Below are positions 24,074 to 31,281 of a DNA stretch of 54,845 nt, in pieces (position 1 is the first letter of the stretch; every line of letters starts with the position of its first letter). The DNA comes from Chromatiales bacterium (lineage in GTDB: Bacteria > Pseudomonadota > Gammaproteobacteria > SZUA-152): assembly GCA_026982555.1 (NCBI GenBank), contig JALSGT010000106.1:1-54845 (forward strand). Reading direction: 5' to 3'. Under the pieces are notes generated by a model, which searched no databases, had not been told where the DNA came from, and was given only the letters and a program-made list of their open reading frames with translations. Made by a program: the position numbers and the translations under genes.

Positions 24074-24682
24074 ATGGGCTTAGAGTCGATTACTTTTTAT
24101 ATTTTTTCCGCGATACTGGTGGGCTCCGCCGTGCTGGTGGTCTCGCTACGCAACCCGGTGTTTTGCGCATTGGCCTTGGTGCTGGCCTTTTTTACCAGCG
24201 CCGGTCTCTGGATATTGCTGGAAGCAGAGTTTCTCGCACTGACCCTGATCCTTGTCTATGTCGGCGCGGTTATGGTGCTGTTCCTGTTTGTGGTGATGAT
24301 GCTGGACATTAATCTCGCGGTATTGCGGGAAGGCTTTACCCGTTACCTGCCTTTTGGCCTGGGTGTTGCCATTGTACTGGTGGCCCAGTTGGCGCTGATC
24401 GTCGGGCCCGAGCACTTTGGCCTGGAGGCCATGCCAAAGCCGGAACCTCACGCGGCGGATTACAGTAATACAAAAGAGATCGGTCGGGTTTTATATACGG
24501 TTTACCTGTATCCGTTTGAACTTGCTGCGGTCATTCTGGTAGTTGCCATTATTGCCGCAATATCTTTGACCCTGCGTCGTCGTCGCAAAAAGCAGACCAT
24601 GACACCGGAAGATCAGGTCAATGTGCGCAGCAAAGACCGGGTACGGTTAGTGAAAATGGCTTCCGGCAACAAAGATGAATAA
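24074..24682 (+). CDS. nuoJ: NADH:quinone oxidoreductase subunit J
   Basis: A 202-residue membrane subunit (ND6 family) with five helices. The family segment LTLILVYVGAVMVLFLFVVM is present at about 57-76. The C-terminal tail is basic (LRRRRKKQ) and cytoplasmic. Normally nuoK follows directly; here an unrelated lipoprotein gene separates them. Confidence 0.95.
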   Translation: MGLESITFYIFSAILVGSAVLVVSLRNPVFCALALVLAFFTSAGLWILLEAEFLALTLILVYVGAVMVLFLFVVMMLDINLAVLREGFTRYLPFGLGVAIVLVAQLALIVGPEHFGLEAMPKPEPHAADYSNTKEIGRVLYTVYLYPFELAAVILVVAIIAAISLTLRRRRKKQTMTPEDQVNVRSKDRVRLVKMASGNKDE

Positions 24683-24772
24683 CTGAATGCTTTAGCTCTT
24701 TTATTAATATAAGGAAAAAGGAACAAAAGTAACGTAGATAAATTACCTGTATATATCCTCCCAGAGGTAAGC

Positions 24773-25228
24773 GTGAGAATATTGCTTGTACTGTTTTTTG
24801 CACTTTTATTAGCATCGTGTGCAAATAAAGATGTCTCTCATGATAGTGAATTAGTGTTTTTTGCTAATAACTTTCAATTGATGTCAGAAACAAAAAATAT
24901 AAAACCGACACTTTTTGCTCGTTTGCTAAAATTGAAGGAGTTGGGTGAATGTGATGCTGGTAAATGTCCAGGCGAAGTGGTTTACATCGCAGTTTCAGAG
25001 TTTGGCGAATACCCGGAGCAACGATTATATGTAACAAAGCAAGCCGATGAATGGCATTTTTCAGGTTGGGAGTATGTGCCCGCTTCCGGAAGAGAAAGAC
25101 AGGTTATCGTTTTTAAAATGAAAAGCATTACAAATGGCATTGAAACTGAACATACGATAAAAGTCAGTCTGGATAATATAGAATATACAGACCGGAAAGA
25201 GATACCGAAAAATTCAGGCGAACGCTGA
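24773..25228 (+). CDS. Putative lipoprotein inserted between nuoJ and nuoK
   Basis: A 151-residue protein with a signal peptide and lipobox LLASC (Cys16), so it is likely lipid-anchored to the outer face of the inner membrane or to the outer membrane. The mature part has no domain I recognise. It contains a CDAGKCPG pair of cysteines and looks rich in beta strands. It starts with GTG 24773 after AGAGGT. The gene is visibly more AT-rich than the flanking nuo genes, and a complex I operon has no place for it, which suggests later insertion. It is in the same direction, so nuoK to nuoN are probably still co-transcribed through it. Confidence 0.75.
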   Translation: MRILLVLFFALLLASCANKDVSHDSELVFFANNFQLMSETKNIKPTLFARLLKLKELGECDAGKCPGEVVYIAVSEFGEYPEQRLYVTKQADEWHFSGWEYVPASGRERQVIVFKMKSITNGIETEHTIKVSLDNIEYTDRKEIPKNSGER

Positions 25229-25287: not shown

Positions 25288-25593
25288 ATGATTTCAATTT
25301 CACATTTTTTGATTCTGGGTGCGATTCTGTTTTGCATCAGTATCGCCGGTATATTTTTGAATCGGAAAAATGTCATCATTATATTGATGGCAATCGAACT
25401 CATGTTATTGGCGGTCAATATGAACTTTGTCGCCTTTTCGCATTATCTCGGTGACATTGCCGGGCAAGTTTTTGTTTTCTTTATCTTGACGGTGGCAGCA
25501 GCAGAAGCCGCCATTGGTCTGGCGATTCTGGTTGTGCTGTTCAGAAACCGTCGTACCATCAATGTTGAAGAACTGGATTCCCTGAAGGGTTAA
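25288..25593 (+). CDS. nuoK: NADH:quinone oxidoreductase subunit K
   Basis: A 101-residue membrane subunit (ND4L family) with three helices. The conserved Glu residues of the proton path sit in [11 protein letters not shown] and [11 protein letters not shown]. The ribosome site GGAGAGA precedes ATG 25288. It lies 59 bp after the inserted lipoprotein gene and 17 bp before nuoL. Confidence 0.96.
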
Positions 25594-30741: not shown

Positions 30742-31281
30742 ATGAAATTTTTATTATCAGGGCTTTGTCTGCTTATTATAACCGGGTGTTCAGTATCAGG
30801 ATTGCAGGAAGCAGAGCCACCGAAAAAATATACTAAAATTCATTATAGTGGCTATTTTATATTAACAATTCCGACCCCGATGCTGGCGAATGCCAAAATT
30901 CTCGACTCTGATGGAACGGTAATAGTATTCGATAAAAAAAGACAGTTATCCGGGTTTGTTATTACTAATGAAAAAGATAATTTGCCTGAAAAATTTAATC
31001 TAAGGGATTATCCAAAATATCTTTTAGGACTTAAAGAAACAGATGGTTTGCCTGCTGATATAAAGCGAAAGTTTGAGTTGTCTTCAAAAGAACTTAAACA
31101 AAGTCTAGGTGGCCTCGCAGTTTCGATTTATGATGAAAGTAGTAAGGTGTATTATGTTGTTTGCAAAGAAAAGTCATGTGTTACTTTTGTGATTATGAAA
31201 AACCAGGGCGAGCAGATTTTTATGCTGACCTCGGAGGGGTTTGATTGGGGTTTTCTGAAAAAAATCATAAAAGGAACTTAA
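30742..31281 (+). CDS. Putative lipoprotein downstream of nuoN
   Basis: A 179-residue protein with a signal peptide and lipobox IITGC (Cys16). The mature part begins SVSGLQEAEPPKKYTK and then looks like a mixed alpha-beta domain with two late cysteines (VVCKEKSC). I recognise no family. It is markedly AT-rich compared with nuoN and yceH. It lies 134 bp after nuoN in the same direction. It shares size, lipobox and composition with the lipoprotein gene inside nuo, but I see no convincing sequence similarity between the two. Confidence 0.72.
   Translation: MKFLLSGLCLLIITGCSVSGLQEAEPPKKYTKIHYSGYFILTIPTPMLANAKILDSDGTVIVFDKKRQLSGFVITNEKDNLPEKFNLRDYPKYLLGLKETDGLPADIKRKFELSSKELKQSLGGLAVSIYDESSKVYYVVCKEKSCVTFVIMKNQGEQIFMLTSEGFDWGFLKKIIKGT

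Follow-up and report, generated by a model that had tools for sequence, protein, structure and literature searches.

Orphan immunity genes in described systems

In the type VI secretion systems (T6SS) of V. cholerae, immunity genes are kept after displacement of their effectors, with the 3' end of the effector gene left behind and with illegitimate recombination involved (Kirchberger et al. 2017, PMC5361080). An islet of T6SS and CDI immunity genes without cognate toxins is known from S. Typhi, for which protection against competitors has been proposed (PMC7400221). Outer-membrane lipoproteins such as Tli3 act as immunity proteins of T6SS phospholipases and guard the periplasm (PMC9860674), and M15-type peptidase domains in T6SS WHIX effectors make M15-like peptidoglycan enzymes known T6SS warheads (PMC12135965). 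The locus analyzed here lies on a contig of 54,845 nucleotides from a Chromatiales bacterium, which is referred to in full as the window, and it is like the orphan genes of V. cholerae in that immunity appears to have been kept after effector loss, while the 3' end of the putative effector gene is left in relatives (PMC5361080). However, the V. cholerae genes are grouped in arrays where T6SS clusters end on the 3' side (PMC5361080), whereas the genes found here occur singly, within operons of core energy metabolism (nuo, atp, cco). Similarly, the S. Typhi islet comprises 14 genes in Salmonella (PMC7400221), whereas we found isolated single genes of a different protein family. The cognate effector of Tli3 is a phospholipase (PMC9860674), whereas the family described below has no sequence match in PDB or Pfam. 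Finally, the WHIX effectors carry M15 domains (PMC12135965), whereas the 138-aa partner protein described below is a stand-alone protein that matches no M15 HMM and agrees with these enzymes in motifs alone. We consider that the gene between nuoJ and nuoK is probably an orphan immunity lipoprotein gene of an undescribed family, which would be expressed by nuo read-through and act in the periplasm, most likely against T6SS effectors.

The insertion between nuoJ and nuoK

The original prediction had placed here an AT-rich lipoprotein gene, in the same direction as nuo, whose product carries a lipobox and a pair of cysteines, and the open reading frame was found exactly as stated (cf. Table 1). 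It comprises 151 codons, begins with GTG, ends with TGA, and is intact throughout. Its GC content is 0.375, and its GC3 is 0.30, as compared with 0.61 for nuoJ and 0.49 for nuoK. The lipobox reads LASC (residues 13-16), with Cys16 as the lipid-bearing residue and Ala at position +2. Since the match of the protein to the Pfam lipoprotein model LPAM_1 is weak (E 0.76, under the cut-off), the lipobox call is based on reading of the sequence and on conservation in relatives. The protein was without a match in Pfam, NCBIfam, PHROGs, and PADLOC, and its AlphaFold model (pLDDT 54) was too poor for a fold search.

Table 1. Coordinates of the features discussed (plain numbers refer to the window; other loci are given by genome and locus)
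Feature	Position	Strand	Basis
nuoJ, left flank, intact	24074..24682	+	Pfam PF00499, E 3e-39
Whole inserted segment	24683..25258 (right edge +/- ~10 bp)	+	alignment with empty sites in G002, G004, G006, G009, G010
Shine-Dalgarno-like AGAGG	24763..24767	+	sequence; 5 nt ahead of the GTG of the inserted gene
Inserted lipoprotein gene, putative orphan immunity lipoprotein	24773..25228	+	ORF, distant family membership
nuoK, right flank, intact	25288..25593	+	Pfam PF00420, E 4.8e-30
Second lipoprotein gene, directly after nuoN	30742..31281	+	AT-rich, lipobox ITGC
Second NuoK homologue, own genome	G000:C22:3090-3377 (L026)		39% identity
CdiA-CT protein and next ORF, after nuoN	G009 L045:576-1885		PF18431, E 2.3e-6
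atpC-glmU interval	G003 L038:8396-9236		
Teredinibacter waterburyi three-gene array	L051:3821-4874		
Additional lipoprotein gene	G019 L034:479-1102		

The window contig (C106 of genome G000) belongs to a bin that is 73% complete and consists of 162 contigs. NuoK was sought in 24 genomes of the same bacterial family, and the canonical gene was recovered from 15 of them besides the window genome (86-100% identity). The site between nuoJ and nuoK was empty in all 15. The gap between the two genes, 605 bp in the window, measured 36-158 bp by script in 13 relatives, while at L010 and L022 nuoJ was seen directly in the sequences to abut nuoK, which bears out the expectation that complex I operons are usually uninterrupted here. 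In the sister species G006 and G009, NuoK is 100% identical, NuoJ is 99.5% identical over 195 aa, and the gap is 37 bp with no insert. The left edge of the inserted segment lies directly past the stop codon of nuoJ and the right edge at about 25255 +/- 10, which gives a length of about 575 bp, and the ribosome-binding site of nuoK downstream of it is intact. Scans of the segment revealed no transposase, terminator-like site, Rfam match, or clear terminal repeats. An RNA element was rejected on the Rfam result, and a transposon or integron cassette origin was rejected as neither a transposase nor convincing terminal repeats or site duplication were present, integron recombination sites having been judged by eye.

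Two origins had been proposed for the gene, namely arrival by transfer without disruption of the operon and an accessory role in the membrane arm of complex I. The former is supported by the empty sites in 15 family-mates, the low GC3, the shared direction, and the lack of a terminator-like site. Because the empty sites include those of sisters with identical NuoK, the gene is, as judged from these alignments, a recent single-gene acquisition and not a conserved complex I subunit. For the latter origin, an accessory or assembly role in the membrane arm, the position and direction within the nuo operon would speak, but conservation of the gene with nuo, as might be looked for in such a factor, was found in 0 of the 15 relatives with canonical nuo. 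None of the other members of its family (see below) is located in a nuo operon; their neighbors are a putative peptidase gene, T6SS genes, or genes of the atp, cco, and radC regions. We regard this explanation as very improbable, and the comparison refutes a general complex I subunit. Even less credit is due to a chimeric join made during assembly of the metagenome bin: although the bin is incomplete and fragmented, both flanks of the insert continue one nuo operon that is near-identical to that of the sisters, and the nuoK ribosome-binding site is preserved.

Several other features of the nuo region were recorded. The window holds a second AT-rich lipoprotein gene, which encodes 179 aa (GC3 0.30) and has no Pfam or PADLOC match. 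Among the family genomes, a copy of it (83% identical) was present in the sister G006 alone, where it is cut by the contig end; possibly, this is another immunity-type gene. Behind nuoN of the sister G009, there is a gene for a protein of 334 aa whose C-terminal part matches a CdiA-CT RNase A toxin domain, with a score over the cut-off, followed by a 96-aa ORF that presumably encodes its immunity protein. Hence, the 3' flank of nuo also collects toxin genes. The window genome also encodes a second, distant NuoK homologue, found in other family members too, which belongs to a paralogous complex I or a related complex.

A rare lipoprotein family and its partner gene

A search of 57 relatives with the inserted protein gave one marginal match (E 0.036), a 148-aa lipoprotein from a bacterium of the same genus (G003; public name Gammaproteobacteria bacterium isolate D96SM.bin.23), and pairwise BLASTP of the two proteins gave an E value of 2e-5. 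A profile built from these two rows retrieved clear relatives in G017, G019, G020, and G021, a further scan revealed members in MC-02, Teredinibacter waterburyi, Denitromonas iodatirespirans, and a Methylomonas bin, and a class-wide search added those of G099, G201, G209, and G366. Since G099 and MC-02 are identical in sequence at the locus (L055, L047), they were counted as one case. Weak matches in G022, G027, G052, and G669 were judged to be noise, as was a 34-residue local match to beta-xylosidases, the only one that the family profile gave against PDB sequences, to be chance. No relatives were found in phages, plasmids, or viral contigs, the scans of phage records and IMG/VR included, and a phage origin was rejected on this result, as was a lipoprotein for phage lysis or superinfection exclusion.

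As a control, an HMM was constructed from the mature parts of eight other members, with the signal peptides removed and the inserted protein left out. This HMM scored the inserted protein at 14.3 bits (E 0.0037 among 2353 sequences), which is significant but weak; the best of 2000 shuffles reached E 0.17, and no other ORF of the window was better than E 1. Residues C16, C60, C65, V74, S75, F77, E79, and P81, the last five forming a VSxFxExP motif, are invariant in the aligned family, the Cys60/Cys65 pair being present in 7 of 7 aligned members. We infer that the inserted protein, which shares 21-30% identity with the others, is a divergent member of a rare lipoprotein family, the membership being distant but significant. 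The family is uncatalogued, i.e., absent from Pfam, NCBIfam, and PADLOC. The low identity, the single-sequence search value of E 0.036 per genome, and the low-confidence structure would also fit a small lipoprotein from outside this family, for instance, an envelope-stress lipoprotein, with a convergent likeness in short motifs. We consider this improbable, because the independent HMM left the shuffled sequences far behind, the lipobox and the Cys pair do not vary, and the search that started from the inserted protein reached the family by itself.

Members of the lipoprotein family in G019, G366, G099, and G209 have a putative effector gene directly upstream. In G019 (L034/L050) and G366 (L058/L066), this partner encodes an intact 138-aa protein and ends about 8 bp ahead of the lipoprotein gene. 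In all five genomes with a detectable partner, the lipoprotein gene directly follows it. A search of 369 genomes of the class found the partner in three, each time adjoining a lipoprotein of the family, and among the 24 family genomes it was intact in G019 and reduced to a 21-codon tail in G003, in both cases beside the lipoprotein gene. The partner has two conserved motifs, H...GxAxD (H...GKAVD) and DHIH (DxxH), which are similar to the residues that form the metal site in peptidoglycan peptidases of the M15 type, with H63, D72, and H134 as the putative zinc ligands, and a partial homologue in G209 has the canonical spacing of seven between His and Asp. Profile searches with the partner yielded no match in Pfam, NCBIfam, or PDB, hhalign against Peptidase_M15_4 domains gave a value that is not significant (E 0.17), and the AlphaFold model (pLDDT 38) was too poor for a fold search. 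As the HMM, PDB, and hhalign comparisons do not confirm an M15 assignment, we refer to the protein only as a putative zinc peptidase, M15-like at the level of motifs.

In Teredinibacter waterburyi, a protein of 190 aa, in which the SxHxxGxAxD and DxxH motifs are canonical, is followed by an unrelated 163-aa lipoprotein and then by the family lipoprotein, an arrangement that is likely an immunity array. Just downstream of the peptidase-lipoprotein pair of G019, there is a gene for a 207-aa lipoprotein of no known family.

Proposed toxin loss, antidote retention, and dispersal

The loci of the family show stages of toxin loss and antidote survival: an intact pair, a lost start codon, a toxin tail only, and no toxin. 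The reading frame of the partner is open in MC-02/G099, and its start codon has changed from ATG to ATA. In G003, the last 21 codons alone remain, ending in '...HIHFSVN*', and the remnants in the other two loci read '...IHFSVN*' (G017) and 'DDHIHFSVN' (G019:C112). These 3' remnants, which comprise the final 7-21 codons, each lie closely upstream of a lipoprotein gene or its remnant. Loss of the partner with retention of the lipoprotein is the pattern that marks effector-immunity pairs in which the gene for immunity persists after that for the toxin has gone. Lipoprotein genes have decayed as well, by a nonsense codon in G021 (L049), an internal deletion in G019:C112, reduction to a remnant in G020, and a frameshift in Methylomonas. 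This decay, together with an insertion at nuoJ/nuoK in one species only, would suit a neutral passenger, i.e., a horizontally acquired gene that is in frame by chance, has no current function, and is bound to decay; yet, no damage is seen in the inserted ORF, its lipobox, its Cys pair, or its ribosome-binding site, and we hold this to be a rather unlikely explanation, though the strongest of the alternatives.

The window copy has no effector gene directly upstream, being the sole gene between nuoJ and nuoK, and no partner tail was found in its 90-bp leader. The partner gene was not detected in its own genome either, a provisional result as this genome is 73% complete; provisionally, the window holds a homologue of putative immunity genes in a genome where no cognate effector was detected. 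The family is linked with T6SS indirectly, through one known locus in a T6SS cluster: the frameshifted Methylomonas copy, a pseudogene, lies between tssA (ImpA_N, E 5e-31) and tssB (VipA, E 6e-57). TssC is present in 9 of the 24 family genomes and was not found in the window's own, 73% complete genome, but orphan immunity requires no T6SS in its host.

Under the orphan-immunity reading, the ancestral unit would have been a two-gene module, with the gene of the small putative zinc peptidase first and that of the lipoprotein antidote second, of which the toxin half was repeatedly broken or deleted and the antidote retained. A copy or divergent paralogue of the antidote gene may then have landed between nuoJ and nuoK via illegitimate recombination, where it would be translated from its own ribosome-binding site and, as we infer, transcribed together with nuo. 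The product would leave the cytoplasm via Sec and be tethered through Cys16; as the +2 residue is not Asp, the inner leaflet of the outer membrane is the probable site. Its periplasmic domain of about 100 residues, with a probable C60-C65 disulphide, would bind and block an effector that cuts peptidoglycan and that a competitor introduces into the periplasm, most likely via T6SS. Peptidase activity of the partner, T6SS delivery, and inhibition by the lipoprotein are presumed parts of this scheme.

In this bacterial family, the lipoprotein genes occupy four sites: nuoJ/nuoK (the window), atpC/glmU (G003), ccoH/ccoI (G017, G019, G020), and downstream of radC (G019, G021). At each site, the lipoprotein gene has the direction of the gene upstream of it, and three of the four lie in energy operons, a pattern that, with four sites, is no more than suggestive. 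Besides the lipoprotein gene, the atpC-glmU interval of G003 holds two ORFs of 107 and 90 aa, which may be pieces of a single broken gene and end in a hydrophobic toxin-like tail, as well as a DUF1493-like acyl-carrier-type ORF (E 0.011). We tentatively raise the possibility, which we rate below even chance, that, in this lineage, the nuo, atp, and cco operons repeatedly take in single antidote genes, whose co-directional insertion would give constitutive, high-level immunity without the weapon, a dispersed form of acquired interbacterial defence; if true, such defence would be missed by gene-cluster searches. In place of a new complex I factor, which was a tempting but false lead, these findings put a putative effector-immunity family that is uncatalogued. 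They also suggest that orphan immunity genes are worth seeking inside housekeeping operons, a place that searches based on T6SS or CDI clusters would pass over.
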